A stretch of 64,000 bases of DNA from Tribonema minus (lineage: Eukaryota; Sar; Xanthophyceae; Tribonematales; Tribonemataceae), in assembly GCA_017506865.1 (NCBI GenBank), contig JAFCMP010000536.1, positions 310,001-374,000 on the forward strand, in the 5' to 3' direction. Shown piece after piece: positions 6,585-62,714 of the stretch. How positions within the stretch are numbered: position 1 is the stretch's first letter; every line of letters starts with the position of its first letter. The notes under the pieces were generated by a model that worked only from the letters and a program-made list of their open reading frames with translations, was not told the DNA's origin and made no database searches. The position numbers were made by a program, and so were the translations under genes.

Positions 6585-9500
6585 CTAAAACTCATCCTCG
6601 TGCGCCCAAACCTTAACCGTCCTATCCAAGCCACACGTCACTAGCCGCGATTCGTCAGGCGACAGATCGCACGCGCTGACTCGGCCTTCGTGTCCGCTTA
6701 ATGAGCGCAGCAGGGCAAAGTCGCGGGTGCGCCACACGCGCGCGGTGCAGTCGAATGACGCGGTGGCGAGGGTTTCGCCGCTTTTGCCATATCTGAAATG
6801 GAGGGACGGGCAGGCGCGGGGGGGGGGGGAGGGGGCAGGGGGGGGGGGCAAAGCTGAGCAAATCCGTTGATGTGACTTGCAATAGCAGTTCGTGGGCGGG
6901 GGTCTTGAGATTATGGCTACATAGGGGTGCGTTGATATGGCAAAGAATAAGTGCACACTTTTTGTGCTGCACACCTGCTAGCGGTCGCCAAGTGCCATCT
7001 GTGAGGTCCAGAGCAGGGCATGTGCGAAGACATTGTGTCAAGACATTACACCAAGTGAGTTTGTGCTGGTGCTTGAATATTGTGGTCCGATGCGCAATTC
7101 TGGCATCTGCTCTGCTATATAGTCCACATTTAGAATTCTCACATCCGCTGCAACGTGCGTCAGCAGAGCCCTGTCAAATTACGTAGGGTACTTGGCTGGT
7201 GCAGCCAGGTGGAGCATGGTGCTCTGAAGTACATTTCTTCTTTTGTTGAAATACCTCGTCATCCATGAACTTCACTTCACTTCCAGCGCACCTGACGTCG
7301 GAGATGAGCACGGCGTGCACCAACTTAACCCTGCAATTAAAGCAGCGTGCATCAACATGCACAGACGAGGCAAAAATGCTCACTTCGGGTTAAGTTTAGG
7401 ATTATAACCTAACCCAATCCTAACCCTAACAATAAGCCGTAAACTTCACTTCACTTCACGTCCTCCAGCGCACCTGACGTCGGAGATGAGCGCAGCGTGC
7501 GCGGGCAGCGTGTATGGAGAGACTCAGATGATGCTCACTCAGGGTTAGATATAGGGTTATAACCTAACCTAACCCTAACCCTAACCCTAACCCTAACCAT
7601 GAGCCGTGAAGTTCACTTCACTTCGTCCGACGCACCTGACGTCGGAGATGAGCGCGGCGTGCGCGGGCAGCGTGTACGCGCACTCCTTCCTGCGCAAGTC
7701 CCACACGCGCACCGTGTGGTCGTCGCTGCCGGTGGCGAGCTCGTAGCCGTTGGGCGAGAAGGCGCACGCGGTGACGCGTTTCACGTGACCCGCCACGCTG
7801 TGCACGGCGCGCCCGCTGCGCAGGTCCCACACGCGCACGACGCCCGCAAAGTCGCCCGTCGCCGCCAGGGCTCCGTCGTCTGCGATCAAGTAGGAATAAG
7901 GCATGGGAAACGGTACCAAAATGAGGGATGGGGTCAGGGTCTGGGTTAAAGCACTCAAAGCGCTGTGCACGGCGCGCCCGCTGCGCAGGTCCCATACGCG
8001 CACCACGCCCGCAAAGTCGCCCGTCGCCGCCAGCGCACCGTCGTCTGCAACAGCGCAAGAATGAGGGGTAGAGTTGAGGTAGTGTTGACATTAGGGCCTA
8101 GGGGCAGGGTGTGAGCTCTTAACGTGCCCTGTGAGGCCGCCAGAACTCCGTCGTCTGCGATGGGGTAAGAATGAGGGTTAGAGGTAAGTCAGGGGTAGAT
8201 GTAGGGCCAGGGTCAAGGGTGTCAGTGCTTACCATGCCCCGTGAAGCCGCCAGCGCATTGTCATCTGCGACACGGTAATAATCAGGGTTAGAGGTAAGTC
8301 AGGGGTAGGTTTAGGGCTACAGTCAGGGTGTTAGCGTTTGATACGCCTTGTGACGCTGTGCACGGCGCCCGCCGCGCAGGTCCCACACGCGCACAACGCC
8401 TGCAAAGTCGCCTGTCGTATCAGCGCTCCGTCGTCTGCGCCGTTGTGCTAGGGTTAGAGTTAGGGTTGGGCGAGGGTAAGGTTAGCAGCTAGGGTAAGGT
8501 TAGGATTAAACTCAGGGCTAGGGTTAAGTTGGGTTGGGATTTACGGTTAGCTACGTAGGTCCAATACGCGCACGACCGCAAAGTCGCCTGTCGCATCAGT
8601 GCTCCGTCGTCTGCGCCGGGTAGATAGGTTTAGGGTCAAGACAGGGTTAGGTATTGGATTACGGTTGGGTTTAGGCTCCTTGTGGTGCCCGTCCTGCAGC
8701 AGCAGCAGCGCCGTGGACACTTCTGCTGCGGATCTGCTGCGTACTTCAAAACATGAACTTCAGACCACATGTGCTGTACATACACACCCTGAAAAGCGAT
8801 AACGTAGACCTCCTTGTGGTGCCCATCCTGCAGCAGCAGCTCGTAGCAAGCTTGAAAACAATGCTGCGTACTTCAAATCATGTACTTCAGACATAAAAAA
8901 ACGAATCAAAAAGATCGTTGAGCTCTAGGTGACAAGGGATGGTTAGCCGCAAGTACCTTCCACCAATAACCGTGGTCGCCGCTGCTGCAGCCATTGGCCA
9001 CGAGTCAAACAGTGCCACCATAACCACAGTTGACAAAAAGACTTCTGTGTGCAAGCTTTTTAGCGTTCGAGGCAAGGGTGTTCAGTATGGACAGGTCTCA
9101 CGTGTTCGGTAGGGCAGCTCCAGCTGGCAGCCCAACACAGAGGTTCATCAGCTTGCGACAGCGCTCTTGAATGCGTGTAGTGCAGAAGGTGATGAACAGG
9201 TTTTGAACCAATCCGTGTGGCGACACGGTGGCTCCATGTTGTTTAGCACGAGCTATCCGTAGCGTTCTCCTTTCCTCACCTACGAGCAGTAGCGTAGCAG
9301 GCGGAGCGCGTGTCAGGAGCCTTGTCTGGTCCCCTAGCTTCGCCGCGGTAGAGGTGTAAACCTCTCTAGCTCCATCTACCCAGTTCTCAGTCCGTCTCGG
9401 ATTGTGTCCGTCAGCAATGTTTAAAAATGAAACGTATGTGGTATGTAATAGCTTCGTTTTCCTCAACTTAATGATTATGCAGGGCACTGATAGTGCTCCC

Positions 9501-11678
9501 CTGCATAGGTGAACCATATACACTGATTCACATGATGCAAACTTTCCGTTACATCCTTCAACTTCAAGTTGAAGTTGAAGAAAATGAGTCGCACGTACGG
9601 TCAGATCACCCCAGAGTGGGGGTGAAAAGTCCCATTTGCATTTGCAGGGAGGTTCTTCGTACGCACCATATCCACAGCTTTGAGCCACACTACTTAGCTT
9701 AGGTTGTGGTGATTCTGATAAATGTTGTACTTCCGAAGTACATACTTTTACATACCTTGTCGTACTTACTTCTACATACCCTGAAAAGCGATAGCGTAGA
9801 CCTCCTTGTGCCCGTTCTGCAGCAGCAGCTGCGTACTTCAAACCATTACTTCAAATCATGAACTTCAAACTACATGCATTTCACATACACATTTCTGAAA
9901 TGCGATAGTGTACACCTCCTTGTGGTGACCGTCCTGCAGCAGCAGCTGTGCGTACTTTACATCATAACTTCAAACCATATATGCGTCGTACATACATACC
10001 TTGAAAAGCAATAGCGTACACCTCCTTGTGGTGCCCGTCTTGCAGCAGCAGCTGCGCGCCCGTCTCCACGTCCCACAGCCGCCACGTATGGTCATAGCTC
10101 GCCGTACCTACATACCGCCCGCACGGGTGAAACTCCACGCGCGCCAGCCTATCAGCGTGCCCCGTCAGTGTCTGCAGGCACTTCCCCTCCTGCGCATTGT
10201 CTCCGTTGGCGCCGCCGTTATTGTGGTTGCCCGCGGCTGCTGCTGCTGCTGCCGCTGCTCGGGCGTCCCAGATGCAGGCCGTCTGTGGCGTAGTGAGTAC
10301 ATGGTGCGGATGGCACATGATGAGTCGCTCGTTGCATGCGGCGAGTCACTTGCTGATGTGTCGCGAGGTGATTGCGGGTTGGCCGCATTTGATGCTCAGG
10401 TTTGATGTACGTGCAGTGTGTTGCACATTGCTGAGAGTTGAAAAGCGAGCACTCCTGTTGTGAAGCCGTGATCACTTCCTGGTAGCCACTTTCTATACCG
10501 CAGCTGCATCATGCTGCAGAGCGCATCTAAGACAGCTGCTGTAATACACTGCAATGTCACCTTCTTGCTTTCATTGTTGAAACTCATAGTGTGCAAGAGG
10601 CCCAATGCTGCCATCGCTAACGCGCAGCACGCACCAGATTGCTGCTTTTCAACATCACCAATGTTGCATGCATAGCCGCAGCAGCACGCAGCGAGCAACT
10701 AGTCGCATGACCAAGCAATCGCGCAGCCTACAACATGCCTATGGTACAGTCATTACGCACGGCATGCACGACGCACGCACCCACCTTGTCTGCGGCGGCC
10801 GTAACCAGCAGCGCGGGTCCCGCCTCTGTCAGCGCGCGCGGATGCCACGCAACGCCCGTCAACCTTTCCTTGTGCCCCCTAAACACTCCGCACGGCCGCA
10901 GATCCTTCATGTTCCACAGCTTTGCGACTCCGCTCCACGCCGCAGAGGCGACGAGGCTGCCGTCCGGGGAGACACGCACGGCGGATAGGGGGCGTTCGTC
11001 GCCGACCGCGCTGACGTTTATCACCAGGCCCTTCAATCGAGTGCACGCGGCGGCGGCGGCGGCGTCCTCGGCGCTGGCGACGGCGGAGTCGAGGCGGCGG
11101 CGCTTGGCGCGCGCAAGGCGCTGCGGCGCTGCTGCGAATGAATATGATGCAATGACCTCACGCGCCTCGATCAAGGGCGCTGCGGCAACGGTGTACACGA
11201 CCTCGGCTTTGCCCTCTTCCACCGCTGCTGCAGCTGCCTTGGCAGGTTCAGCTGCTGCGAGAAGGCTTGCCACGGCAGCGTCGCCCTCGCCGTCGAGTTG
11301 CAGCTGAGCCAGGTGCTCCCTGAGACGCTCTCTGACATCTGCGAGGGTCTCGCTAAACAGGCGGATCGGCTGTCCGAGCCTGCGTAGTGCCCGCGCGACC
11401 TCTTCCGGCAAAGTGGGGACAGCCATGGTGCGAGCGCGCCTGTGAGCCTCCACTTTGCGAAGCATCTCTGCATGCTTGTCCTGCTCCTCTCTGCTCGCAG
11501 CGGACAGCTCCATGACCTCCGTTTGGGCAATATCGTGAATGTTGATGTTGCCTGAGGCGCGAGCTTTTTCGACGGCGCTGGCACCCAGTGGCGGGACACC
11601 GGCAGCCGCAGAAGCAGCTGCAGCTGCAGAGGCAGCGGCAGCTGCTGCCGCATCGTCAACATCCATAGCTTCCGTCAT
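6585..11678 (-). CDS. PRP4: U4/U6 snRNP protein PRP4 (WD40 splicing factor)
   Basis: Core component of the U4/U6 and U4/U6.U5 tri-snRNP, acting in the nucleus with PRP3 and the cyclophilin. The exons (minus order) 11678-10785, 10282-10000, 7879-7636 and 6792-6585 join in frame to 542 aa, close to the family length of about 500. Residues 1-30 are Ala-rich. Residues 87-121 form the PRP4 splicing-factor motif (VPTLPEEVARALRRLGQPI and following). A basic nuclear-localisation-like stretch (RLARAKRRR) follows. From about residue 230 to the end there are seven WD40 repeats ending in clear W-D, e.g. SYDHTWRLWD and GSDDHTVRVWD. The start ATG 11676-11678 lies 269 bp from the divergent Nup107 start. All introns are GT-AG; the second (7880-9999) is unusually long at 2.1 kb and is filled with decayed copies of both neighbouring exon edges. 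An internal Ala run (residues about 302-310) is encoded by a GCN repeat. Confidence 0.93.
7261..7521 (-). repeat. Exon-edge ghosts: donor end of PRP4 exon 3, two copies
   Basis: The real exon end and donor are at 7636/7635. The same sequence (plus-strand GCACCTGACGTCGGAGATGA) recurs at about 7287 and 7470, roughly 183 and 161 bp apart. The copies carry upstream TTCACTTCACTTC and short telomere-type tracts that also precede the real junction. The copies keep the GTGC donor but decay away from it. Confidence 0.85.
7561..7598. repeat. Interstitial telomere-type repeat (CCCTAA)n
   Basis: About six CTAACC/CCCTAA units lie in a PRP4 intron. A decayed counterpart at 7410-7436 sits at the same place in the neighbouring tandem unit, so the tract is part of the duplicated unit. 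Strand G-rich form is TTAGGG. Confidence 0.85.
7965..8612 (-). repeat. Exon-edge ghosts: acceptor end of PRP4 exon 3, about five copies
   Basis: The acceptor of the real exon is at 7880-7881 (plus-strand CTCCGTCGTCTGCGATCAAG). Copies of this junction appear near 8040, 8150, 8262, 8432 and 8605. The copies at 7965-8047, 8352-8441 and 8556-8612 extend about 60-90 bp into the exon (the FAGVVRVWDLRSG part). The intervening DNA is rich in GGGTTAGGG-like words. Decay increases away from the real exon. Confidence 0.85.
8893..9024 (+). repeat. Dispersed intronic repeat, copy B
   Basis: This shows the AAACGAATCAAAAAGATCGT start, GAGCTCTAGGTGACAAGG and the CGTGGTCGCCGCTGCTGCAG block shared with copy A. 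It lies inside the long PRP4 intron, among exon-edge ghosts, opposite in orientation to the gene. Confidence 0.8.
9556..9580. repeat. Near-perfect palindrome, 12-bp arms
   Basis: The arms CTTCAACTTCAA and TTGAAGTTGAAG flank a single G. The same words (TTGAAGTTG/CAACTTCAA) are over-represented across introns of the window. Could extrude a hairpin; no function known. Confidence 0.7.
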
Positions 11679-11947: not shown

Positions 11948-14900
11948 ATGGCGGGCCAGCCGGATTGGGACTTTTTGGCGCCGCCTCCAGACATGGAGCT
12001 GGATAATGATCTATTCGTGAGTTTCATGGCCGCGTGTGGTCATGTTTTTAGTTGGCAGGGTGCCGTCCTTGCGCTCTGAACATGTTACAAAAGATGCTTG
12101 CCATTGAACTTGACAGCCTTGCCGATCTGTTATGAAAACAAAAGCAAGACGTTTGGCAGAATTACTGTACTTAATTCAGGCATGCACTTCAGGCAGTTTT
12201 CAGCGTGTGTTCCAGGAAATTTTCAATTTCGCCTTCTTCTGCGCACTTTCTGGTGGTATGCGCATGCCAAATGAGCTAGTATATGCAATGGGATACATGT
12301 CAAGGTGTTGATCATCAATATCCAGAGACTTCACAGAATTTACATCGCTGAAGGCTTTGCCATTGTTCACGTCTTCAACGACCCACAGCCCTGTTGAGCT
12401 TCCGATACGTAGGCCTGTAACTCGGGCAGGGTGCTCATGAGACAGACAGCAGCTCTGGCACGGGGCTCACCTGCCCATCAGCATTAATCCTCTTGCGATG
12501 TGCCAGGCTCCTGTTGTCGCGCCACCCCATGTGGCGCATGCAGACCACACAATTTGTCAGCCCTTTCTGACCTTCAGGAAGCCTGCGGACGCTGCGTTTG
12601 CATCTGTCTGCTGCTGCCTCAGCTCTGTCAGGCTCACGGTTAGGGTTAGGGTTAGTGCTAGGCGATGCTGTGCTCTAACACATGTGCTGATTGCCCGCTG
12701 CTTGTTCTTACAGGGCGGAGTGTCTGCGGCGCCGGGTGCCAAGTTTGGCGAAGACGCCTTGAAGCGCGTCGAGGCAATGCTCAACGGCATGGGCGACACT
12801 GGCGAGGAGCCCGTGGAAGAGGATTCATGGCTGGGTCTGGGGGGGGGCGAGGGGCCCTTTGGGAGGGTCAGCTATGGGGCCTTGTCTACCTATGGAGGCA
12901 CGCCGATGCGTGCTGAGTCGGGGGGGCAGCGGTACCCCTATGCCAGCCCCCTGAATGAGCGCGTGGCGTTGCACCCGATGAGGGTGAGCACTGCTGTGCG
13001 TGGTCATGTTTTGGCGGTAATCGGTGTGCAGGTGCCCTTTGAAATTGTGTCCAGCCTTGTGGCTGTGTGAATTCATGGCAGTGCTACTGTATTGCTGGTG
13101 CGCAGCAAGCCGTTGCAGTCGCTTTGGCGTGCAGCAGCGTTCATTAGACCTGGTGGCTCCGATGCCTAAGTGGGGACTTGTGACATGATTTCAGTCTCTG
13201 ATGTACCAGCAGCCATGCACTGATAGCTGGTGAGCCGACCTGACGAATGCAGCTAGCTCGTTTTGAGTCCGGAACAGGTGAGGAGTAGGGTTAGGGGTAG
13301 GATCAAGGACGTGACTGTGGCTGCATTCTGCGCTCTTGTCGGATACCAGTAAGATTTCACAGTCTCTTGCAAGTGATGCCGATGAGCGATGCCTTCACCG
13401 CACCGCGCCTTCCCGCCCCCCCGCGCCCGTTGCGATGATGCTCAACAGGTGATGCAGGACGACGAGGACTACCTGATGAGCGACGCGGAGCCCGCCGCCA
13501 GCGACATCAGCGGCGGCGACAACGACAACGCATACCAGTCCACGCTCCAGCCCGCAATAGACTTCGGCGGGCAGAGCCCGCAGACGTTTGGCGCGCGCGT
13601 CAAAGTTCAACTTGCGGTTGGCGTCGCGCGCCGCGTCTTCTCCGAGGAGGTCTTGGTGCGCCCGGTGAATGCGCAGGCGGACACGGTGGCGGCGCTGCGC
13701 GATCGCGTCGTGCAGAAGCTGAGCAATGCTGCAATGATAAATGCCGTTCGCACAGCGGGGCCGCTGCGCCTGTTCATGGATGGCGTCGCGCTGCCCGATC
13801 AGCAGTATGTGGGGGTGGCGGGCATCGGGGCGACGACGACGGCGGCGCTCGTTGTGAGGCCGCAGGCGCTGGGGCCGCCGCCGGTGAGGGGGGAGGAGGA
13901 GGAAGGGACGCTGGTGAGTGCGGGCGCGCGTGGCGAAGTGCGGCGGTGTTGCGTGTCGCATAGTGTGCTCGAGGAAGAAATCTTGTTGCGTTAGGGATAA
14001 ACTTCAATATCACCACTTGAAGTTTGTGCTTGGTTTTAATTTTGATTGTGTAAGCGCCATCGCCGTGGTGTATCTGATGCACTCTCTCGCGACCAGCAGC
14101 AGTGCTGCTCAGAGGCATTCCATCTTGGCCCTACAGCAAGTGGTAGAACTGCAGCAGTGGCCGCTCGACAGGTTAGGCACAGTGCTTCTGCACCCTTGCC
14201 TTGCACCTGATGGCTGGACCTCTGCTTCGATGCATAGGACGTACAGGCAACGCGCAACATCAATCCCAAAGCAGGCTGACAGACCACTGCCTGAGCCCTG
14301 TCTGACCGCCCCATTTCCGCACCATTGTAATTGTACCAGGTCACCCACGGAGAGCGAGAACGCGACCAACACAAAGACAAGGCAGTGCTGGCAGAAGACA
14401 AGCCCTACACGGTGCTTGTGGAGGCTGATCTCAGGAGGCTGCGCCCGGAGGAGACTGCGTTTCACCGCCAGGAGGATGCCGCTGGCAGCGCCGCCGCCGC
14501 CACGGATGTGATTGAGAAGCACTGCGAGGCGTTGCGTGAGGCGGGGAAGCAGTTGGAGGAGAGGCTGCGCATGCACGCGGCGGCTGGAGGTGATTACAAC
14601 TGTCGCAGTGCTGTGCATGGCGGCGCGCGCGGCAGCTATTTGATGTTTTGGGCAATGTACTCGAAGCATCAGCTGCATTACAAGTCACACTCATGTAGTC
14701 ACACAAAGCTGACCCCCCCCTCCCCTCCATCCCCCCGCCCCCGCGCTGATCGCTGCCACAGCGTTCGGCGCTGACGCCGTCGCGGCCGCGCGCCGCGCAG
14801 CAGAGCGCCGCGCCTGGCTGCGTGCCGAGCGCGACACGTGGGACCTCGTGTCCGCGGCGGATGCGCAGCGCACGGAGGACGCGGCGCTGGCCGCAGCGCT

Positions 14901-17900
14901 GACGCAGGACTCCGACTCCGACTCGCCGCCGCCGCCGCTGGGCGTCGGCGCCAGCGACGCCGCTGTCGTCGCGCACCTGACGCGCACGACGCGCGAGCTG
15001 CGCTGGCTGAGCGCTGCGCGCGCGTGGGCGCAGTGCTGCTCCGCGCGGCGAAGCAGCGAAGACGACGGCGGCGGCGGCGGCGGCGCGGCACTGCCGCCGG
15101 AGCAGCGCGGCGCGTTCACCGCGTGGCCGCAGACGGAGCGGCGGCTGCGCAGCGGGCGGCGCACGGCGGCGACGGGGGAGGGCGTCGCGGGGCTGGAGCC
15201 GGACGCGCCGCTGCTGCGCGTGAGCGGCGGGTTCCGCGTGCTGGCGCTCGACGGCAGCGATCAGCGCGACGAGGAGGATCTGTTGAGGGGGGTGTGGGCG
15301 CTCGCGCGCGCGGGGGACAGGGCGGGGGCGGTGCGGCTGTGCTCGCGCTGGCGGTGCCGCTGGCGCGCCGCAAGCCTCAGCGGCGGGGAGATGAGGCCGC
15401 AGGTGAGCAGTTGAAAAGAGGGGTGTAACTGCCGTAACTGCTGTGTAACTGCTGCAGTGTGAGTGCTTAACGGCAAGGAGATACGGCCACAGGTGAGCTG
15501 CCTAAGAGGGGTGTAACTGCCGTAACTGCCGTGTAACTGCTGTGGTGAGACTGGTGCAGCGCTCAGCGGCCAGGGAATGAAGCGGCGGGGTGTGGCGTAC
15601 ACTTGCCTTGGTCGCAGTCACTGGAGGAAGGTGTAGTCCGAACCTGTGTAGCACACTAGTGTCAGGCGTGTCTTGTGCTTAGGGTCAGGGTTAGGGTCAA
15701 GGTTAGTGCAGCAGACATGACGTCGACGCGCTGAATTTAATGCTGAACAGGCATGTGTTGCAGCAGGTGACTGCGTTTCAGCGGGGAAGGCTACGAGCAG
15801 CGGTGTTTGAGCACTGCTGCAATCGTGAAGGAGGGGTGCTGCATTTGGCGTGCAGATGCCAGCAAGCTCTGTGTGCGTCCAGATGCATTCATGCGAAAAG
15901 TTGACCGCATATGTCATCTAAATACTCGAAAAGAATGACAAAGTTCATGTCAACTGAAAACAAAACTACTTTCCGTTCTCGCCATCTTAATGCGTCAACA
16001 GTTACCATAAGTGAAACCGTGACCTGTCATCACATCTCGCGTTGCAGGATGGAGCAGCAGACCCAGAGGCGGTGGTGCACGTGCCGTTCAGCAATCCGAA
16101 CCGTGCGCTGTGGCGCGATATGTGCCTGAAATTGGCAGTTACACTGCAAAACGGCGCCGTCAGCGGCGGCCCCACGTCGGAGGCCGTTGAGTACGAGAGC
16201 ACGTTGTATGCAATTCTGGGGGGAGACTATGACGCAGCGCTGGCATCACCGCTCAACCGCGACTGGGAGGGGCAGGTACGGCAAAGTTGAAGTTTAGTGA
16301 AAAACGAATCAAAAGGTCGTAGAGCTCTAGGTGACAAGGGATGGTTAGCCGTAAGTGTTGAGCTGCAAAGTCCGGCGTGTGCATTTGGACTGTGTACTTC
16401 ACCTGTTTGTGTGTGTAGGGGGGGGGGGGCAGTAAATTCTGGCGCTTGGTGCATTTTTTCTCTGTTGTGGCTTGGAGGCACAGCCATGGGGGGATAGAGC
16501 ACAGCACAGCTTGAGTTGCTTTGCGGGTCAACTGCTCGCCGATCAAGGGCATGTGGAGGAGCAGCGGTGCTGGAACACTCTTGCAATAGCAACTGTTTTG
16601 AGACTGTGGTCATGAGCAGGCTCATGGAAACGGTGTCTGGCCCTCTTCACTTAGTGCAATACGACGTTAATGCTGTGCTAGACAAGGCAGGGGGCGTCAT
16701 TTGCAGGCGTGCATTATCAGTAGTAGACGTAGCACATGAAGTATACTTCAGTATACTTTAACAGCATGCACCACTAGCTTAGCACGTTAACTCATAACAA
16801 ACCGCAGAAGTCCTTGTGCACCAAGCTTGTGAGAACTCGGTGCCTTCCGGAGCTCATGGCTGAGCTGCAAGTATTGCTACTTCAAGATACGAAAAAAGTG
16901 GATAATTACAAGATTGAGGTGCGCTGTCATTGGCGTGTGCTGTTCGCATCTAAGGTAGCGTGCTACCTTCGTACACAACCGTGCTCATGCAAGACGTTTT
17001 TGCAGTTACTGGTCCCGACCTGGATGTCAAGTGGGGCACTGTGCCTAGCATAACCATTGTGATGGGGTGAATAATGCGTCAGTACAGTAGCACAATGCTG
17101 CAGGCGGGTTGCACCAGCGCTGCTGCGAGCGGTAGCCAAGCACTTGCAGCTCACCTGCCATTGCTGGAGCGCTGCAGCAATCCCCCTCCCCCTCCCTGCC
17201 CTAACTGCTGCTATGGTGCTGCACGGGCGCCGCCAATTCTTGCCAGCAGTAAATGTCATATTGCAGCAGATTCATGAACCAATGTTGTGCCCAGACAGCT
17301 CTCGCGATCAGCGTTACCCCCTAAAAGCTGCACAGGCTCCTAACTTACCCCGCCACCCCCCCATTACCCCGCGCTGCCTGCGGCAGCTCTGGTGCCGCGC
17401 ATGCGCCGCCGTCGACGCCGCGGAGGAGGCCGCCATCGCGCAGCACCGCTCAGCGCAGGCGGCGGAGTCGGCGCTGTACGCCGGCGTGGACGCGCTGCCG
17501 CGGCAGCGCGCCGTCGCGGCGCGCCTCGCGCGCTTCGCGGAGCCGCTGCGCACAGTGCTCAGCCGCGCGGCGGAGTGGAGCGCTGCTGCCGCTGCCGCTG
17601 CTGCTGGTGCTGCTGCGGAGGCGGCGCCGCCAGGGCCGCTCGTGGCGCTGCGCAGGCTGCAGGAGGCGCTGCTGCTGGGCAACGCGGAGCTGGCGCGCGT
17701 CATTGTTGAAGTTGTGACTCCAGCGGTGAAGTTGGCGGGGGAGAGGGGGTCGGGGCGAAGGGGGGCGGGGGCGGGGGCGGCTCCGGAGCTGCTGAGGTTC
17801 GCCGCGCATTTTGTGCTGCACGCACGGAGGCTGTTTCCGGGGGTATTTGATGAGGGCGAGGCGCTTGCGGAGTGGGACGGGGACGGGGGGGGGGAGCAGG

Positions 17901-20900
17901 GGCTGCGCGCGCGGGCGTGGCAGTGCTCGCAGGAGCTGCTGTGCGCATACATTGAGCACCTCAGGTGGGCCGAGCTGGCTAATGTGCAGCTGCTGAGACG
18001 TTACTTCATGGATACTTTAATTCAAGCGCATGACATGATCCATCATGCTACATGGTTGTGATTTACCTCGGTGAAAACTGCGAAGACGAAAGTGTCAGTG
18101 CCCTCAAGGCTGCGTGCACTGCATACATACATACGGACGTCTCAGGCACCTCAAGCCGGGCTGCAGTTCAGGCCTATACTTCATCTGCTGTTAAGGACGC
18201 CAGTCATCAAGTCATCATGAAAGGTAGCAATTAATGTGTGGATGAAGGCGCTGGTGCTCACAGATTAATCAGGCCAGTCAATGAGTGCGGGGTGATGACA
18301 CTGTCCTCAGGCCCAATCTCGAGATGCTGTTCCATGTACAGCGCATGGCATTCACATATGACTTGTTCACGGGCATGCGTCAACTCATTGCTTGTGCAAG
18401 CTGCTGGTGGCCACCACTGTAGTTGAATCCTCATGCATCAAGAACAACCTCAGATTGGGCAACCTTAGCAACAGGTTGGCTGTGGGGAGTTGGCGGTATT
18501 GCAGAGTGTGATGCGCTGGTTGGCAACTGAGCCTCCCTTTGGGCGTTGAGTGCAGCATAATGTGCGCAATCTGAGAGACGGGCTTCTCCGCGCTCCAAGC
18601 CAATCTCAGTAATTACAACATTAAAGTCATAGAAGTGTGTCATAACGTGCAACTTCAAAAGTAGCACCATAGCCAATGCGACCCGTCCAATACCACACGT
18701 ACCCATGCCCCGCTCCTCGTCTGCCGCATACATGCATACATACATACTGCAGCCGCCAGCCCGGAGACGAGGCGTTAATCGCGCTATACGCCAGCCGCGT
18801 GGAGCCGGAGGAGCTGAGACGTGCCACATACGCGTCGTTCCTGAGGCGTGTTACGGACGACGGAGCGCGCGCCGTGTGTTACGACGAGGGGACCAAGTAC
18901 TTTGCCAGTGAGCTGCCAGCGATGCTCAGGTAAAGGCGTTGTTTTCCTGCTGTCACTGCAGCTGCGGCTGTGGCCGCACAGAGTGAAGAGCTGAGCACTG
19001 CTATGCTTGCGCTGGCAGCAGCGCTCAGCCTTTCTTGAATGTTTTGGGGCACAGTATCTGTTGAGCAACGTTGGAAGGCTCTGGGACATGTGTTGATGCA
19101 ACTGCCAGCAGAGAGTCCTGGGTGCTTTGGTATGTTGAGCCTCTACGCCAAAACGCCCGCAAGTTGCCTTCACCACTGCCTGCAACATTCGTTGACTCCC
19201 CACGCTCAGCGCGTCAGCGGCTCGAGTGCCCGCCACTGTCACAGCGCTCGCCAGACCAGAACGTCATCAGGCCATCGCAGAAGCTCAAGTCGTTGATGCA
19301 ACGAGACCTGTACCTCTCAAACTCATTGCACCAACTTTTCTCGCATCTTCAACTCCAACTTCAACAGGCAAGTGGTGCGCGAGACGCGCCTCAGCGAGCC
19401 CTTGCCCCCGCCCGCTGACGGCGAGGACGTGAGCAGCGGCGATATGGTCAAGATGAACACGCTGCGCTGGCTGCAGGTCTCCGAGAAGCACGATCTGGCC
19501 GCTGTGGAGGAGGCCTGCGCCCTCATTCGGCAGTTCGTGCTGCAACCGTACGGGGCCGGGGTCACTGCTGCTGACAGGTATGTAAGGATAGTGGCTACAG
19601 TTGGTGGTGTTGAGGACAGAAAGTGTGCTGTGATGTCACATGCCGGAGTGCTCTTTTGTCCAGACTTTGAAGCAGAAGTTTTGACTGCCTTGCTGGATGT
19701 ACATCGACGCTGAATGCGCCGTAAATGGAATTGGGAGTGCAAAGGTGCTGCTGCTGCGGCGACAAAGCTCCGCGCTTCAGGGCACCCTGCAGGGCCTGTG
19801 TTACAAGCGATACAGAGCTGGAAGAGCCACACTGTGTGGGCGCTGTACAGTGCAGTGCAGTAGTCTTGTTGCATCCAGACCTTTTTGGGTGTTTCTGGGT
19901 GTTCCCTGCCTCTGGCATGTTGTTGCCCCCACCTTTGAACGGCTACATACACACTGCTGCTGTGTTCGAGCACATTGACTTCTGTGCATTACCAAGGCCC
20001 CCATATTTAGAGCTTCGTCTGCGTTGCTGTATGCTGCAGCAGTGCTCCGCCCGAGCACGCCGGCGACGACAGGCGCATGGCAGCAGTGGAGCGGCTGCTC
20101 AGCAGTGGCGAATTCATGGCGCCCGCGGATGAACTTGACGACAGTCTGCTGCAGCTGACTGATGCTGGCGAGATGCAGGAGCGCATCGCCGCAGAGGAGG
20201 CGCGCAGGGAGTACAGGTGTGTACCACGCGTGTACTGCGATTGGTCGCAATATTGGGAGCGCCACCAGCTGCGTGTGTGCGTGACGATGCAACGGTCGCT
20301 CTAGGTGTGACTAGGAAGTCTGATGCGCCACAAAGCCAGATGTTGGTGCATTTAACGATGTTGATGCATTGACTGTACTGCGGACTTTAACCAGCAGAGA
20401 CGTGGGAGGCATGCATAGCTTGCCGCTGTTGCTATTGGGTTCAGTTAAAGCATACGCATTGCCTAAGCCGCCCTCGTCAATGCTTCACACCGATACAGGC
20501 GTGTATTACATGCATGGGCTAATCGATGCTTACGCGGGCTATGTTGCCAGATTTGTCAATGTGAGATGAGGGTTCAGGTGTGTGCGCTAAGCATTCCATT
20601 GGCCGCACATACTCCTTCCCTTCATCAAGCAAGTACATTGCCATTACGCTCAGCAGCAGCACCATCATTGCTCAGCCGTGCCGCCCAAACGCCGCCGCTG
20701 CTGTCAGGTGCTGGCACAAGCTGGTGGACGCGCACGTCGCCTTCCGCCAGTGGCAGATGGCCATGGCCGCCGTCAACCTTAACAGGGACGACGAGGACCT
20801 ACTCATCGCCGCCAGCGACGCAGCCTCCGCCGCACAAGACCGGCTGCTCGCCGTACTCCTCTACCCAGGGGGGTGGCTGGCCCCCGTGTCCCCCACCCCG

Positions 20901-21239
20901 CCAGCGGGAACGGAGGCGGCGGCGCGGGCGGCGGAGCTCGCGGCGGCGCGCGCCGCGTGCGTGCCGCGCTGCGCGTCCGACCTGTGGACCGTGTGCCACA
21001 AGACGGGGGTGGGTATGAGGGAGGCGGGCTGGGTGGCGCGCGGCGACGGCGCGGGCGCGCTGAGCGCGGAGCGCTGGCTCGATGCGGCGAAGGACGTGAG
21101 CGCGACCGTCGCGGACGAGCTCGCGGGGCTCGAGGGGCTGTTCTCGGGGGCGCAGGTGCGCGCGCTGCTGCGCGGCGTGCACGCGTCGTCCATGGAGCTG
21201 CTGCGGTGCCAGGAGCAGGCGCTCAACCCGCTGCACTAG
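11948..21239 (+). CDS. NUP107: Nuclear pore complex protein Nup107/Nup84
   Basis: Scaffold nucleoporin of the Y (Nup107-160) complex on both faces of the nuclear pore. I join 11 exons: 11948-12016, 12714-12983, 13449-13913, 14340-14589, 14762-15402, 16048-16275, 17387-17964, 18753-18929, 19368-19577, 20073-20216 and 20708-21239. All junctions keep frame, giving 1187 aa, longer than the ~925 aa of the human protein because of Ala/Gly-rich insertions. The N-terminus (GQPDWDFLAPPPDMELDNDL) is acidic and disordered. The Nup84/107 family signature VWALARAGDRAGAVRLC..RWRAASLSGGE is encoded at about 15290-15393, followed by FSNPNRALWRDMCLKLA and the helical C-terminal repeats. The C-terminus ends MELLRCQEQALNPLH. 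All introns are GT-AG. The fifth intron carries exon-edge ghosts and the sixth carries dispersed repeat C. Length and low-complexity inserts are unusual; family assignment is firm. Confidence 0.9.
15463..15590 (+). repeat. Exon-edge ghosts: donor end of Nup107 exon 5
   Basis: The exon 5 end GGGGAGATGAGGCCGCAG and donor GTGAGC (15403) are followed by GTGTAACTGCCGTAACTGC. The whole unit recurs from about 15463 (AAGGAGATACGGCCACAG|GTGAGC) with the same TAACTGC tail, and again more weakly near 15565. Confidence 0.8.
16299..16360 (+). repeat. Dispersed intronic repeat, copy C
   Basis: This holds AAAAACGAATCAAAAGGTCG, GAGCTCTAGGTGACAAGGGA and TGGTTAGCCGTAAGTG, in a Nup107 intron (16276-17386). It matches only the first ~60 bp of copies A and B. 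Confidence 0.8.
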
Positions 21240-22300: not shown

Positions 22301-25300
22301 ATGAGGGCGGCAGCGGTAGCAGCTCTGGCCCTGGTGGGACTGGCAAGATCTGCCTATGGAGATATTCCACAAGTCCCGATTGGATGCGTGCAGGGCGCGC
22401 CTGGCGGTGCGTGAAACATGCATTCGTGCGAGTGCGTTGACGCAGGTTGACTGCAAAGTCAGATGTATGTCCACCTTGCTGGCCCTGCTGATATCGGTGC
22501 TGCGCAGTCTAGTGGTTTTGAAGTCAATCGTACGTAGTGTGGCCTTGAAAGTGTTGCAACCATAGGTCTCTGGCACACACGAGCAATGATGTTTTGTTCT
22601 CAACATTGTCCCTGCGCTGATTGTTGTTGTGTGTTGTCTGTCGTGCTGCAGGCGAGTTTCAGTATGCGTTCTCACCGCCCCAGACACGGGTTACGATGAA
22701 ATATGCTGTGGTCACGCAAGGCGGACAAGACTGGCTGAAAGTCTCAGTTCAGTACCGAGGAGTGGGCTGGGTCGGCTGGGGAATCAGCCCAGATGCTGGC
22801 CGTATGCCCGGCTCGACAGCAGGTGACCCTTAAACTGCAGTTTGGATTCAACGCCACAGCGCTGCTGCGTGCTCTATGTCAGATTGCAATATCGGGTCAT
22901 TCCCGCGGTGTTTGGGGCCTAACGCCGCTTTCCGTTCGACGTTCATGACACAGGCAACCAGGAACATGATTTCATTAGTGTTTTGTTGACCACCCAGCAT
23001 TGCTTGGCTCGTATGATGGCGGTGCTGTTGCTTCTAAATTGGAGTTCAAATTGGTGTGGCGAGCCCGCACTGTGCCTTGAAGGTCATCATCAAGTCGCTC
23101 TCTGCACGAAGGTCTTCATCAGTGTAGATGCATGACTCTGTTCCAGAGTGCTTGGCAAGTATGTAGTTGGATCAGGCGGACCAGGCATTCTTGTGGCAAT
23201 AAGCACCAACAGTGAGCCCTCTTTTGGCCAAGATATCACTTCAACAGACTCATTCTGTGGTGAACTGTAAAGCACTGCTTCCCAGCGTGTGTGTCCTTCC
23301 AAGCAACCAGCCGCCTTGCTTACACTCACCGCGAGCTGAGTTCACGCACACTGGCGCATTCACCGCAACGTCGACTACCTGTTCAAAGCACGCCCATTGC
23401 GTATTCGCTGCTAACCCTAACTCTACCCCTACCCCAAGTGCGGGCAGCCGCGTGCATGTATCACAAAGTTGTGCTGCGCACCACGGCTGTGCAATCAGCG
23501 CATGGAGTCAGCAGCAACATCTGTTCCCTTTGCACGCCACTGCCTCGTAAGTGCCAGCACGGAAAAGCGACCTTGCTTCACAAGCGCGAAGAGGTCTGTC
23601 CAAGCTTTGACTATGGCAGCAGCTGCCTCTCTGCGCGCTGCGTAAAGCACACGCGCTTTCATGCAACCCGCTTTGCCGATGAGACCACCCTGCCAACGTG
23701 AACACAACACATCACAACCATCTCACCCGCAAAACAGATGGCTGGAAAACTTCAACTAGTGCAACACGGTGCTGATAACTTCAACTTCTATGGTATGGCA
23801 TTGCTCCGCGTGCAGTCATCGGCGTGCCGGCGGATGCCCTCCCCGCGAGCGTCCAGACCTACAACCTCAACGACTACAAATCGGTCGTGCCAGCGGACAT
23901 TCAGGACCTCGCGCCCGGCGCCGCCGTGACGCAGGCCGACGGCATCACAACGCTCAGCTTCCTGAAACCGCTGACCGGCGCCGACGGGGTCACCCTCACG
24001 CCTGACGCCCCGCAGACGCACATCATCGCGTGGGGCGAGAGCAACGTGCTGGCGCACCACGAGGGCCGCACGCGCATTAACCTGACGCTGACGGGGTGCA
24101 CTGCATCGCTCGGCGCGGCTCCGGACGCGGTTGACGTGCCCGTTGGTGCTGGTGGCGGAGGTGGCAGCGCTCCTCTGGAGTCGACAAAGCCCGCGGTGGA
24201 GCCCGAGGAGCCCACGAGCGCCGCCGATGGTGGAGGTGTGCTCTTCAGTATAGTTGTTGTTGTTGTTGTGTGATGTGACAAGAGTGTGTGTGTGATGTTG
24301 TGGTGCGCGCTTCCATGGTGAGGATTCAGGTGAGGGTCAGGGTTAGGGTGTAATATGGATGGCAACGGCTGCGTGCGGTGCGTACACAACCTGTGAGCCA
24401 TATACGCTCTGACGGCGCGTGATCGACGACTCTCGCGGCGAACGGCGCACACACCGCCCAGGCAAGGATGGCAGCGATGCATGCAGTGCACCGCGCGCGC
24501 ACACACACACACATGTACATGCTTCAACGCGTACATACCTACCCTGATGCGCTGACGCCGCGCCTCCATCACACAGCGTACCGTGTGCACCGCTCAGCGG
24601 CGACGAGGACCTAGGGTTAGGGTTAGGACACACACACACAAACACACACACAGAGAGAGAGAGACAGAGTTTCAGCGCATACATACATACCCTGATGCGC
24701 TGACGCCGCAATTTCGTCACACTGTACTCGCCGCTTACGCAGGTGAGGACGACAGCGGCGACGAGGCGGCAGGGGGCGATGCTGCGGCGGGCGGCGCGGC
24801 GGGGGCAGCGGCCAGCGCTTCCTGCACCTCCATCCCCGGCTTTGACTTCTCGCAGTCGCTCAACGCCAAGGCCAAGATGTACTGGTCGCTGGTGACAGTT
24901 GACGGCGTGGACTCCGTTAAGATGCGCGTTGTGTACGATGGAAACGGCTGGGTGGGGTGGGGTACCTCGCCCGATGGGCAGATGGTGGGGGGGACGGCGA
25001 TTATTGCGGTGCCCGCTACAGGTGCGTGCGCGTGGATGGCCTTGAAGCATGTATTGAAGCTTCTATAATGGATGTAAGCAGTATGATGCCTTGAAGTAGT
25101 TCACTTCACTTCTCGCTCAACGCAAAATACCCTGAGGTTCGCGGCGAGCTTGCCATCATACCAAATTTTCACCTTGTGCTTGTGCTGTATTTGTCACAAC
25201 GAGTGCCTCATGCTCCTCGCCGACCACACCAAATGACATGACCATACTATTTTTTGTCTCAAACGGAAGCTGACTCATGTTGGTTCGGCATCCTTAGTGC

Positions 25301-25757
25301 ACTTGGTGGAAATCAGTGCGTTAGATGTCGCTGCGGTTGTGCTGCTTCTGATAGGGAGCTCTGCTGTGAAAGGAGCACCACTTGGCTCGCAAAGTGACGT
25401 GATGCATTGATGTAGAATCTGGCTGCAAGGCTGTTGCCTTGCGGTTGATTTGACTGGAAACATCCGGTCGAGTGTCTTGTGACACGTGTCAGCCTCTCCT
25501 TCCTGTTTCAAGTTCTTGCCATTTGAGATTCGGTTCCTGTGACATGTGGTTTTCACTGAAACTTTTCAGGGGCGCTGCAGGCATGCATTGTGTCCAGGCT
25601 GTGTCTTCATGTGTGCTATAACATGTGTGCTGCCAGGTGTTGATGCACGCTATATCGAATCACCAGTAGACTTCACTGCCAGCATTAGAGTTGCTTCAGC
25701 GTTTATTGCAGCTTATGTTATGTTAGCGCTCAGTCTTCCACATGCTCACTGCCGCAT

Positions 25758-25788
<31 letters not shown>

Positions 25789-31121: not shown

Positions 31122-31152
<31 letters not shown>

Positions 31153-46960: not shown

Positions 46961-46991
<31 letters not shown>

Positions 46992-47547
46992 ACTCGGTAC
47001 CGCACTGCCCCACGGCCTCCCCCTACGTGGCAGCCACCAACACGCACTGCGCAAACATATCAGCACACTATGCTCGATTCTCTTCCCACGTGCCCCCCCC
47101 CCCCCCCCCCCCCTTTGCCCCACCCTTCAACTGCAGTGCCCCGCGGCCTCCCGCTACGTGGCGGCCACCAACATGTGCGCCCCTCCCGCGTGCGGCGCGT
47201 ACCTCGCGTACGCCACCGCGGACGACGGCACGCGCTGCGCGCTCGCGCCCGCCTTCGTCGCCGTCCTCTGGACCCTGTGCGTGCTATTCGTGACGCTGGA
47301 CCTCGCGGCGGTGCTCATCGCGCGCTACCTCGGCGTCACGGCGCTCGCGCTGCGCGGCGCGCGCCCGCACGGCTGGTCGTACCGCGCCGGCCAGGCGCTC
47401 ATGGGCGCGCTGGAGGAGGCGTGGCGCGTGCTCACGTCGCTGGCGCGGCGCGGCGGCGGCGCCGTGGCGGCGGCGGCGGGCGGCGGCGGCGGTGCGGCGG
47501 CGCCGGCGCAGGCTGCGGCGCCGCCGCACCAGGACCACGTTGATTGA
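42858..47547 (+). CDS. Membrane-anchored pepsin-like (A1) aspartic protease
   Basis: Predicted secretory-pathway or cell-surface aspartic endopeptidase. Exons 42858-43032, 43233-43427, 43944-44219, 45423-46282 and 47137-47547 join in frame to 638 aa. Residues 1-21 are a signal peptide (MRICFALWALWASCPARCLA). The first catalytic motif DTGTSPVVL (Asp57) is split by intron 1, in DTG. The second is AVLDTGASCLTLP (Asp266). The C-lobe strand motif VEVVLGTLAVRGLYTVVD follows after a ~140-residue Ala/Gly/Arg-rich insertion between the lobe halves, which is unusual. The last exon has a CxxxC-rich segment and one transmembrane helix at about residues 540-565 (FVAVLWTLCVLFVTLDLAAV), giving a type-I topology like BACE-type enzymes. 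The C-terminal tail is Ala/Gly-rich and ends HQDHVD. This 3' end is triplicated downstream, and introns 3 and 4 carry dense ghosts. Confidence 0.88.
43676..43910 (+). repeat. ~30-bp minisatellite in protease intron 2
   Basis: About seven to eight units of GCACCGCACTTCACGCATGA plus ATTCACCCAC, 28-34 bp each, with drift in the last third. The array lies ~35 bp before the acceptor at 43942-43943. Confidence 0.85.
44255..44915. repeat. Exon-edge ghosts of protease exon 3, direct and inverted
   Basis: The exon 3 end (GACTTCAACGCGCCGCCCGC, then GGAGAGCTACCTCAGCCTCGG) and donor GTGAGT recur directly at about 44265, 44385, 44495, 44753 and 44850. They recur inverted at about 44520-44640 and 44700-44752. 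The inverted and direct copies meet at 44752/44753 in a near-perfect ~40-bp palindrome (GCGGGCGGC|GCCGCCCGC). A TTCAACGCGCGTTGAA palindrome at 44505-44520 marks another turn-around. Donor sequence is kept in most copies. Confidence 0.9.
46327..46560 (+). repeat. Exon-edge ghosts: donor end of protease exon 4, two copies
   Basis: The exon end (GGGCGCGTGGGGCTGGCTAG..GCGGTGCTGCAG|GTGAG, 46213-46287) recurs at 46327-46417 with an almost intact junction, and at 46497-46562 without it. Confidence 0.9.
46985..47060 (+). repeat. Exon-edge ghost: acceptor side of protease exon 5
   Basis: The exon 5 start (TGCCCCGCGGCCTCCCGCTA..GCCACCAACATGTGCG, 47137-47180) is echoed at about 47004-47050 (TGCCCCACGGCCTCCCCCTA). 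Both copies are preceded by a C-run of about 20. Confidence 0.85.
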
Positions 47548-47760
47548 GGGAGACGGCGTGGCGACGGCGGCGGTGCGGCGGCGGCGGCGCGGCGGCGGCG
47601 GTGGCGCATGCTGCGGCGCCGCCGCACCAGGACCACGTCGATTGAGGGAGGCGCGGTGGCGGTGGCGGCGGGCGGCGGCGGTGGCGCGGCGGCGGCGGCG
47701 CGGCGGCAGCGGCGGCTCAACAGCGGCGTCGCCGCACCAGGACCATGTCGATTGAGGGAA
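47502..47760 (+). repeat. Triplicated 3' end of the protease gene with stop codon
   Basis: The C-terminal coding sequence CGCCGCACCAGGACCACGTT and GATTGAGGGAG (stop at 47545-47547) recurs at about 47620-47652 and 47727-47757. Each copy is preceded by a GGC/GCG-rich stretch of variable length. The same duplication process thus acts on a terminal exon with no splice donor. Confidence 0.88.
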
Positions 47761-56870: not shown

Positions 56871-57104
56871 GAGGAGCGGTGCTGGAGGCGCCGCCGAGCC
56901 CCGGTTCCTAACCCGTATTTTTTGAAGTAGTGTGCTGCGGAACGGTGCTGTGGGTGTGCAAGTTGCCCCTCGTAATGACTTTGACCTGCACGATGATGCT
57001 TATTGCAATTGACAGAGACTGCGACGTGTACTGCAATTATTGCTGGTTATGACAGCAGGGCGTGCAGCCGCGAGACGCGCTGGCGGCCCAAATGTGTTTG
57101 GCAC

Positions 57105-60315: not shown

Positions 60316-62714
60316 CTAGCCCAGGTAGAAGCCCAGCGCGAATCCCGCGCCGAAAGAACCCCCCGCCGGCAGGTTGGCCTTGAGAACCTTACGCGCCTTC
60401 TTCCACAGCATCTTTGCATCCTCCTGAGCGTAGAGGACGGCAGGCAAGTCGATGAGCACTGACAAAAGGGAGCAGCAGCGATGAACATCATGCCATGTCT
60501 CGGAGCTGTCAGTGTGGAAGGGCGGCAAGTGCAAGCACTTGAAGTTGACACAGAGGAGCGTCACAGCTCTGACTGTGCACTGCAGCAGGCGTGGAAGATA
60601 GATGGCAGTTTGGCATGATGTTGTTCCAATGATCACAAACTTCTGTAGCTATCTGCGCACCTGCTGCGTATAGTGGTGCGGATCATGAGGCAGCGAATGA
60701 ATGCTACCGGCTTGTCACCAGAACACCAGCTCGTTCACAGCTGATGGGCTCCCCAGCGCGCATTTTGAGAAGTGCATCACCCATAGCATTGTGCCTGCTT
60801 GAGGTGCAAGTACTGTAGTAGAGAATCACACGTGGGCACACCATTTGCACACTGCCATCTCCAAACCTGCTTGCTTGCAAGTACAATTGACCTAGAGCTC
60901 TACGATCTTTTGATTCGTTTTCATAGCTACCTACCTCCCCACAAACTAGCCACATGAATGCATATATGCCCCCATGCAACAGCCACGCTCAGCAGCCAAT
61001 CTTGTCAACGACCCCGCTGCCATCCTGCCCTATGGCCTGCACCGAGTAAGGTTTAGTTGCACACATCTGTGAGTTGCACACATCTGTCAAGGCTGTTTAG
61101 CATCTACCTGCCAAATCTTGAATGGGTACCTACATACGTGTATGCATTTCTCTCCTTTGTACACACTTAATAGGCTCCTGTACCTTGTCAAAGACCCCGC
61201 TCCCGTCCTGGTCTATCGCCTGAACCGCCTTGTCCTTGACTTGCGCCCAGCTGATGTTGACGTAGCCAAAGTGGTTGGCGAGCTGCGCGGCCACAAAGCC
61301 CGTGCCTATCACGAACGCCGCCACCTTCCCGACCTGTAGGGGCAAGTTTGGGGGGGGAGGGGAGCTGTGCTGAGCACTCGACACAACATCCTCCATCAAA
61401 ACGCGAACACTTAATGAGCTTGGCCCTTTTCATTCGAGTCCGTTTAGCCAAAGGTAATGAGCAGTCGTATTTTTGAGGTGGGCGAGGTTTATGTTCAGCC
61501 AGATAGAAGTAGTTATATTAGTTGGGTCAATTATCAGAGGTTTGCGAGCATTCCGCTCAGCCAGAAGCGGTGTGCAAGTCCAAGTTTGAAGGTAGGCCAG
61601 CTGCAAAGGGAGGAGCACAATGCATGGCGCTGCACAGCGTTCAAGGACACGGATCGGGCCAACCCCCTAATCCTCATCCTGAATTGGCAGCGATTGATAG
61701 CCTGCCCCAGGACAGCATCGCCTTGTTCTACTGCAGGCCTGGTGGACGGTGGCATACTCCAAAGCGTACACAACAAGTGCCTGTTAGTGTGGTGTGTCGA
61801 GCACCTCCCTTGCATCAATTTGCGGTGCTGCCGTGTATATTAGCTCAAAACTGCACTGGCGATGTGAGGATTGGAATAGGGGGGTAGTATTAGGGCTAGC
61901 CACCAGGCCAGAATCACTGGCACAAGCAGGAGAAAGGGCTGCTAGGGTTGCTGCCATGTTGTCCCCTGCAACACTGTGTCAGTGCATATGCAACTTCTGT
62001 GTCGGTGCTCTGAGCCTCGGTCAGCCACCCTAGATGTCAAATAGACTGCGGGGCTGCAGTGGTGGTGGTGTTACTGTCACCGGTCTGACACAATCGATCC
62101 GCTCTTTTTAACTTGCCTGAAGTGTGGGTATGCGAGTGCAAGTCTACGGATGTGCTCAAGCTCTATAAACCCCCAGTAGAGAGCACCGCCACAGCAGCAC
62201 CTGTCGCTGTCGACTGCCGTAACACCTACCTCGGCGCGCAGGCAACATGAAACCACTTTGACTTTTTTAGCACACATGTTCATAAATATATGCACATCAA
62301 GCACGTGTAGACTTGGAGTATTCATTGCACTGGTAGTACAATTGCAACATGGTAGTAGACGCGAGCACTCGCCTTCTTGACTGCATAGCCAGAGCACGCG
62401 CCCAGCACGCCGCCAAACCCAATCTGCCCAATCTGGTCCGAATATCTGTCAATCAGCGCCGTCACAGCGTCATCGCCGTCGTCGCTGTCCAGCGACTTCT
62501 TGCGCCCCCCGTCCCCCCTCGCTGGTGCCCCTGGAAACAGTCGTGAACGCCATTCGTTGGGGTCAGGGGTGTCGCTGCCGCTGCTGCGAGCGCAGGCTGC
62601 GCGGGTGGGCGCGGTGAGGGCGCCTCCGCAGAGCGCTGCTCCGCACACCAGTAGCTGGAGATTTCGACTGGCGCCTCGGGGTGCGCCTGCGCGCTGCGCA
62701 TGTCTGCGGCGCAT
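60316..62714 (-). CDS. FUN14 domain family protein
   Basis: Small membrane protein family of mitochondria or chloroplasts; animal FUNDC1 is a mitophagy receptor, while roles in protists are not established. Exons (minus order) 62714-62373, 61333-61184 and 60423-60316 join in frame to 199 aa. Residues 1-45 are Arg/Ala-rich with few acids, fitting an organelle transit peptide. The FUN14 domain follows: IGQIGFGGVLGACSGYAVKK | VGKVAAFVIGTGFVAAQLA | EDAKMLWKKARKV.. and the closing GGSFGAGFALGFYLG, with hydrophobic Gly-patterned helices. The first intron appears to use a GC donor (AAGAAG|GCGAGT), because only this joins KK to VGKVAAF as in the family. A ghost of the exon 2 end lies at 60998-61034. 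No LC3-type motif was confirmed. Confidence 0.88.
60870..60924 (-). repeat. Dispersed intronic repeat, copy E (inverted)
   Basis: The reverse strand reads AAAACGAATCAAAAGATCGT and AGAGCTCTAGGT. It lies in the FUN14 second intron. The match is limited to about 35-50 bp. Confidence 0.75.
60998..61034 (-). repeat. Exon-edge ghost: donor end of FUN14 exon 2
   Basis: Plus CTTGTCAACGACCCCGCTGC, then CATCCTGCCC..GGCCTG, mirrors the real exon end at 61184-61225 (CTTGTCAAAGACCCCGCTCC). The copy lies about 150 bp into the intron. Confidence 0.85.

Follow-up and report, generated by a model that had tools for sequence, protein, structure and literature searches.

The window analyzed here is a 64-kb stretch of DNA from the alga Tribonema minus. 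It contains six genes whose names, proposed in a first-pass annotation, are backed by Pfam. The PRP4 gene (U4/U6 snRNP) lies on the minus strand at 6585..11666, with exons at 11666-10785, 10282-10000, 7879-7636, and 6792-6585 that give a model of 538 residues plus a stop; 504 homologues were found at E ≤ 0.001, of which the best 120 were listed. The Nup84/107 gene model (13452..21239, plus strand) has its Pfam match in the last exon, and its upstream exons were joined by a home-made HMM gene finder with a training set without exons under 60 bp. The DOMON-cytochrome b561 gene follows at 23857..27681 (plus strand), with an uncertain 5ʹ end. The RhoGEF gene model lies at 30820..41918 on the minus strand. 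Its Pfam support covers the joined exons 41918-41800, 40929-40765, 38482-38366, and 36616-36464, and because the joined whole reads with five stops, the model is unsure below about 35.2 kb. The aspartic protease gene (43944..47547, plus strand; Pfam Asp, E 3.1e-5) has exons at 43944-44219, 45423-46282, and 47137-47547 and a 5ʹ end left undefined in the model; a PDB search with its ORF gave no match. The FUN14 gene lies at 60316..62532 on the minus strand (Pfam FUN14, E 2.4e-27), with exon borders set partly by eye. A gene at 50618-53072, once considered as FUN14, was rejected as it had no Pfam match. An Rfam scan of the window at gathering scores also returned no match. The window further carries several minisatellites with units of ~20–31 bp, in introns and between genes, and a tandem pair of 527 bp, 99.8% identical, at 4039-5086.

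All results concern this one window and its 54 exon edges, with exon models built without RNA. Among 25 modelled introns, two donor and three acceptor positions departed from GT/AG. Some borders are therefore estimates that may be off by a few bases; this affects the boundary-cluster counts, the intron-coverage figure, the site scores, and the decay-by-distance test given below.

Introns in the window carry decaying tandem copies of the adjoining exon end together with its splice site. We itemized 37 such copies (ghosts) at a score of at least 20, 25 donor-side and 12 acceptor-side, within 12 of 24 introns. Copies of this kind occur in all six named genes and, as first proposed, on both sides of introns. 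The copies are arranged head-to-tail, with a unit that spans the exon–intron boundary; in most, an exonic and an intronic portion are joined within a single unit, and a few are an exonic piece alone. Spacing to the next copy or exon was 67–184 bp for 31 of the 37 (105–135 bp for 17), and the other six had larger gaps (210–989 bp).

The PRP4 copies, all on the minus strand, are of the edges of exons 2 and 3. Alignment placed two donor-side ghosts of the exon 2 end plus intron start at 9952-9855 and 9833-9741, and two more lie at 8841-8752 and 8711-8676; this distal pair (8676..8841) is ~0.9 kb past the first two, with a dispersed repeat between. A genome search with 10000-10300 gave no second long match beyond its own locus. 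Acceptor-side ghosts of the exon 3 start were found at 8615-8550, 8439-8334, 8176-8121, and 8066-7961, with a fifth visible in the alignment near 8290-8230, and donor-side ghosts of the exon 3 end at 7514-7429 and 7318-7263. For Nup107 the earlier claim held for a single clear donor-side ghost (15466-15529, plus strand, from the exon ending at 15402), and the acceptor-side match scored just 22. The DOMON-b561 intron at 26224-26557 (plus strand) contains a donor-side ghost at 26264-26375 and an exon-internal piece at 26382-26428, which corresponds to +34..+81 in the exon that follows. The exon ending at 26923 has three donor-side ghosts, at 26984-27058, 27103-27189, and 27214-27281.

RhoGEF, on the minus strand, has a donor-side ghost of the exon ending at 40765 (40570..40721), acceptor-side ghosts of the exon starting at 38482 (38647-38578 and, weaker, 38796-38753), and donor-side ghosts of the exons ending at 38366 (38324-38270 and 38269-38173) and 36464 (36359-36273, 36225-36141, and 36121-36046). 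In the aspartic protease gene (plus strand), five donor-side ghosts of the exon ending at 44219 occupy 44261..44950, an array with an internal fold-back at 44510-44647. The exon ending at 46282 has donor-side ghosts at 46323-46419 and 46501-46560, and the exon starting at 47137 has an acceptor-side ghost at 46963..47052. At 47336..47759, the stop-codon end of the CDS is present in tandem copies together with the sequence after it; like the exon-internal piece, these had been noted at first pass and proved real. FUN14 has a donor-side ghost of the exon ending at 61184, at 61001..61044 on the minus strand (84% over 44 bp, spacing 183 bp).

Comparison of introns with their own and with foreign exons, suggested with the first-pass annotation, was carried out in the window: each of 50 exon edges (the FUN14 gene at 60316-62532 was left out) was also matched against the introns of the window's other genes. 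Own-intron scores reached 56, and foreign-intron scores never exceeded 28. Fourteen of the 50 edges (nine donor, five acceptor) beat all foreign introns by more than 3: three in PRP4, two in DOMON-b561, six in RhoGEF, and three in the aspartic protease gene. None of the 12 Nup107 edges and none of the six edges of the unnamed gene at 50618-53072 passed. Scores above 28, a maximum obtained with shorter queries than those used for itemizing, were held by 30 of the 37 copies (23/25 donor-side, 7/12 acceptor-side). One of 50 edges scored high in an antisense control, its source being the array with the fold-back, and local repeats up to 3 kb apart in the window were direct in 83 cases versus inverted in seven. 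Chance is ruled out for most copies.

We then considered how the copies diverge, in a count restricted to copies that score at least 28 and lie outside the RhoGEF arrays, FUN14, and the gene at 50618. Mismatches between copies and exon at codon positions 1, 2, and 3 were 31/387, 22/387, and 86/383, and divergence was higher in the intronic portion of the unit (118/596, 19.8%) than in its exonic portion (139/1157, 12.0%). Selection maintains the exon copy, and the other copies decay; the third-position excess and the faster intronic divergence fit one constrained copy with decaying ghosts. At positions 1 and 2 together, mismatch (53/774, 6.8%) falls short of the ~10% per lineage that the intronic portion implies, and pure neutral decay is therefore approximate only. 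Of 14 donor copies, 12 kept GT, and three of four acceptor copies kept AG (RhoGEF arrays and FUN14 left out). Among 17 donor-side copies, the highest-scoring GT at any position in the unit reached 7.6–11.7 in 14; the median for authentic sites is 9.5. Judged by sequence, most tested copies retain a recognizable putative splice site. The original proposal of repeated short tandem duplication across exon–intron boundaries, on both sides and with latent splice sites, is supported. That donor-side copies start at an exonic AG looked plausible by eye and failed once homology starts were aligned.

Two further parts of that proposal did not stand. Decay was said to grow with distance, yet the nearest copy was the most similar in only five of eight arrays (eight of the ten aligned, the shortest pieces from PRP4 and the aspartic protease gene being left out), so the trend is not general. 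In these eight, copies differ from the exon by 10–42% and from each other by 19–44%; distances are roughly star-like, with ghosts about equally far from the exon and each other. A few third-position states are common to the PRP4 donor-side ghosts and absent from the exon. Both observations bear on whether internal copies evolve in concert, one of the criteria for the mirages discussed below. The copies were also taken as the main source of intron DNA, whereas recognizable copies make up 1,857 of 22,304 intron bp (8.3%) in six genes, computed without the gene at 50618.

Duplication clusters, counted with minisatellite stretches excluded (TRF period mostly under 60), were concentrated on exon edges. 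Thirteen of 24 lay on edges versus a mean of 6.22 in circular shifts, none of 1,000 of which matched; this control lets clusters land within exons, which lowers its mean somewhat, and the clusters are long. For clusters with a minimum spacing of at most 200 bp the count was 12/18 versus 4.32 (matched by 1/1,000 shifts), and at a stricter cut-off of E ≤ 1e-6, 11 of 20 were at boundaries. It is possible, though we doubt it, that this reflects plain survivorship, in which duplication is even across the genome, exonic duplicates are eliminated, and edge duplicates are recognized most readily. Direct repeats do occur elsewhere, as four intergenic, three intronic, and three exonic clusters and as the minisatellites in introns and between genes, and the edge enrichment is just 2- to 3-fold. 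Against this, boundary matches exceeded the circular shifts, and the 18 clusters whose minimum spacing is ≤200 bp all fell outside the 27.9 kb of annotated intergenic DNA, where the four clusters have spacings of 253–521 bp. Furthermore, simulated neutral duplications were detected almost as well as edge ones, in 39/39 versus 40/40 cases at 7% per lineage and 33/37 versus 39/41 at 16%. Exon conservation does not explain the edge excess at these simulated ages, though some real ghosts are older.

It is unlikely that splicing and translation include the copies as alternative or repeated exons. The kept GT or AG, the coding-like character of the ghosts, and the low mismatch at codon positions 1 and 2 are what such exons would show, and the gene finder called 7955-8044, 44732-44791, and 46322-46414 as exons. 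However, the PRP4 homologues inspected by eye pass through the copied segment a single time, one-base gaps or truncated edges occur in several ghosts, and the intronic portion of the unit is free to diverge. Very unlikely is the Rogers model, in which an exon segment bearing AGGT is duplicated in tandem in the genome and gives rise to an intron, a process described as prevalent. As here, the duplicated segment includes a splice boundary, near splice signals; that process makes a new intron, whereas the algal arrays enlarge existing ones. The model predicts an intron whose start duplicates the downstream exon and whose end duplicates the upstream exon. This order was absent from the algal arrays, in whose donor-side copies upstream exon end, donor, and intron start are repeated within a longer intron. 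Assembly error or collapsed haplotypes can be dismissed as highly improbable: tandem repeats are difficult to assemble and the 527-bp pair is nearly identical, but copies in the eight arrays stand 10–42% from the exon and 19–44% from each other, on a 1.89 Mb contig.

The arrays probably belong to the type called "mirages" in amphioxus, that is, minisatellite-like tandem duplications, here with a unit of ~70–190 bp straddling the exon–intron junction. The mirage accounts consulted, which concern lancelets, describe mirages at 5ʹ or 3ʹ sites in the globin genes BflGb6 and BflGb9, Adh3, PGBD5, and troponin C, with units of 150–160 bp (globins), 60 and 108 bp (PGBD5), and 10–72 bp (Adh3). According to these accounts, many but not all copies carry AG/GT signals, splicing is normal, copy number varies among haplotypes or cells, BflGb6 copies are 81–100% identical, and PGBD5 repeats are also imperfect. 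Head-to-tail units across the boundary, on either side and carrying splice signals, are common to both systems, and this kind of structure was already known. Unlike amphioxus, the host is not a chordate but an alga probably related to brown algae; it has 13 clusters across the 54 edges of a 64-kb window, and its copies are more decayed than the BflGb6 copies described. The novelty lies in the lineage, which is closest to brown algae and allies, and in the array density.

Such mirage-type arrays could arise when a tandem duplication spans the junction. The array would then grow in register via slippage or unequal exchange; the splice site beside the full exon would stay in use, and all other copies, being intronic, would be tolerated. 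The edge excess may stem from targeted breakage or copying there or from better retention of such duplications. We raise only tentatively that a duplication process in this algal lineage is aimed at splice junctions, e.g., through repair or replication slippage at transcribed exon–intron borders, and is a leading, continuing, genome-wide route of intron growth that seeds spare splice sites able to become new exons or introns. The arrays show one way in which introns can enlarge and accumulate spare splice sites, and they open to study the question of whether junctions are prone to duplication or simply tolerate it. Their density in an alga distant from lancelets suggests that junction-spanning tandem duplication may be general and, if so, a general route to intron lengthening and a supply of latent splice sites. 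Introners and other transposon-made introns also add intron DNA. Introner-like sharing of one sequence among genes was not seen when edges were compared with other genes' introns in this window; introners spread into many genes, whereas each algal copy resembles its own gene rather than the window's other genes.

The assembly totals 158.18 Mb in 554 contigs, and the window (positions 310001-374000 of a 1.89-Mb contig) has a G+C content of 51-70% in 2-kb steps. The gene models and the intergenic annotation are our own, and genes could be missed in the 27.9 kb called intergenic. Gene names are backed by Pfam, though the domain matches in Nup107 and RhoGEF span only part of the model, with the remaining exons joined by our own modeling. 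Encoded on the minus strand, PRP4 comprises four exons separated by three GT-AG introns; its reconstructed protein has 504 homologues at E ≤ 0.001. Among the 120 matches listed, the top one is an unnamed protein (62% identity), and five of the best seven are named, coming from three brown algae, Phaeothamnion, and Vaucheria (51-56%). These matches make a photosynthetic stramenopile close to brown algae the probable source of the DNA.

Introns in this window contain head-to-tail copies of the neighboring exon edge together with its splice site, which we call ghosts, and at several edges the units keep a near-constant register. In PRP4, the 2120-bp intron contains four copies of the exon 2 end (three also include the donor and the start of the intron) and, after these, no fewer than four of the exon 3 start together with the acceptor; in the following intron the exon 3 end is present in two copies. 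The DOMON-b561 intron at 26924-27525 holds three copies of the upstream exon end, the two introns of the aspartic protease gene have five and two donor-side copies, and RhoGEF introns have copies on both sides. With longer queries (score ≥20), copies were detected in 12 of 24 introns, 25 of them on the donor side and 12 on the acceptor side, bearing out the first-pass annotation, which had described such copies on both sides.

We compared 50 edges of 25 introns with their own intron and with introns of other genes in the window, using six models (five named genes and an unnamed gene at 50618-53072). Fourteen edges (nine donor, five acceptor) outscored the best foreign intron by a margin above 3 score units; scores against the own intron reached 56, and those against foreign introns did not exceed 28. 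Nup107 and the unnamed gene contributed no edge to this set. Own-edge matches in the window are thus more numerous than chance would give. The reverse-complement control gave a single high score, 50, from an array with a fold-back. Thirty of the 37 copies scored above 28, though with longer queries than in the edge test.

Local direct repeats with a spacing of 60-700 bp, excluding simple minisatellites, formed 24 clusters. Of these, 13 lay on exon-intron boundaries, 3 within introns, 3 within exons, and 4 in intergenic DNA, and the remaining one was at a stop-codon end (11, 2, 2, 4, and 1 of 20, respectively, at a stricter threshold). Circular shifts placed 6.22 ± 1.86 clusters on boundaries and never reached 13 in 1,000 trials, a control mean that is somewhat low because placements may land in exons, where selection would purge them. 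With a minimum spacing of ≤200 bp, 12 of 18 clusters were on boundaries (shifts, 4.32 ± 1.72; 1 of 1,000 reached it), and none lay in the 27.9 kb of home-annotated intergenic DNA, since the four intergenic clusters have spacings of 253-521 bp. A scan of 60-bp windows for nearby direct matches (score ≥24) agreed in direction, with such a match for 25.0% of boundary windows (n = 216), compared with 14.6% in exons (n = 1098), 16.0% in introns (n = 2154), and 7.9% between genes (n = 2652); the corresponding figures for inverted matches were 1.9%, 6.8%, 2.8%, and 0.0%. Among higher-complexity windows, direct matches were found for 28.6% of 35, 3.4% of 59, 8.2% of 547, and 4.4% of 723, in the same order. 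Simulated duplications at 7-16% divergence per lineage were detected nearly equally with or without exon constraint, so detectability does not account for most of the boundary excess, although the ages of some ghosts exceed those simulated. Boundary enrichment is two- to three-fold, in one window with home-made gene models.

Copies differed from the exon at 12.0% of 1157 aligned exonic bases, and at 19.8% of 596 bases in their intronic part. Exonic mismatches at codon positions 1, 2, and 3 numbered 31/387, 22/387, and 86/383, with the RhoGEF arrays and FUN14 left out. Third positions would drift in exon and ghost alike, and first and second positions in the ghost only, so a third-position excess is expected of a constrained exon beside drifting copies. 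The pattern is broadly what such constraint would produce, although the fit is imperfect, as positions 1 and 2 together mismatch at 6.8%, whereas the intronic part would predict about 10%. Ghost-ghost distances were similar to ghost-exon distances in eight arrays, and the nearest ghost was the most similar in only five of these, so that the greater decay with distance described in the first-pass annotation is not general.

Judged from the sequence, this anatomy fits a founder tandem duplication spanning the junction, after which the array would grow in a minisatellite-like manner. As the splice site adjoining the full exon would still yield the correct message, the extra copies would be intronic and tolerated. 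One lead to why junctions might be favored is the density of TTAGGG/CCCTAA hexamers (e.g., 7563-7598 and 32297-32351), with 37 in 23.1 kb of introns, 11 in 27.9 kb of intergenic DNA, and 4 in 13.0 kb of exons, so that the hexamers are about four times denser in introns than in the DNA between genes (1.60 vs 0.39 per kb) or in exons. Telomere-like repeats at interstitial sites can be a sign of break repair.

This type of array is already known as a kind, from an earlier account in an amphioxus globin paper (PMC3087553) and from 60- and 108-bp repeats across splice sites in lancelet PGBD5, in a report that also cites Adh and troponin C (PMC3902484). Other work covers a single potato duplication crossing an intron-exon boundary (PMC4974935), intron gain in review (PMC3443670), and introners (PMC9860276). 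The literature searched, judged mostly from listings and with most subscription journals outside its coverage, showed no such array outside cephalochordates. Recognizable copies account for 8.3% of the intron sequence of six genes (1857 of 22304 bases, in a search that began 20 bases in from the edge concerned). Older copies may be beyond recognition, but this share does not establish the copies as the main source of intron DNA that had been suggested.

The window also holds other repeats. A dispersed family has five pieces (890-1011, 8897-9017, 16300-16358, 38042-38106, and 60890-60924), three of them in introns, with one copy between donor-side PRP4 ghosts. A 527-bp tandem pair at 4039-5086 (99.8% identical) overlaps a Lipase_3-domain ORF in its 3' part; it either arose by duplication very recently or is due to the assembly. 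Another pair (29411-30058; spacing 330 bp, 96% identical) lies in DNA without a gene in our annotation. Inverted repeats of ~310 bp at 57202-57511 and 58601-58291, 84% identical and ~0.8 kb apart, may be the termini of a mobile element, and two related minisatellites with 22-bp units occur ~3 kb apart at 56403-56899 and 59423-59751.
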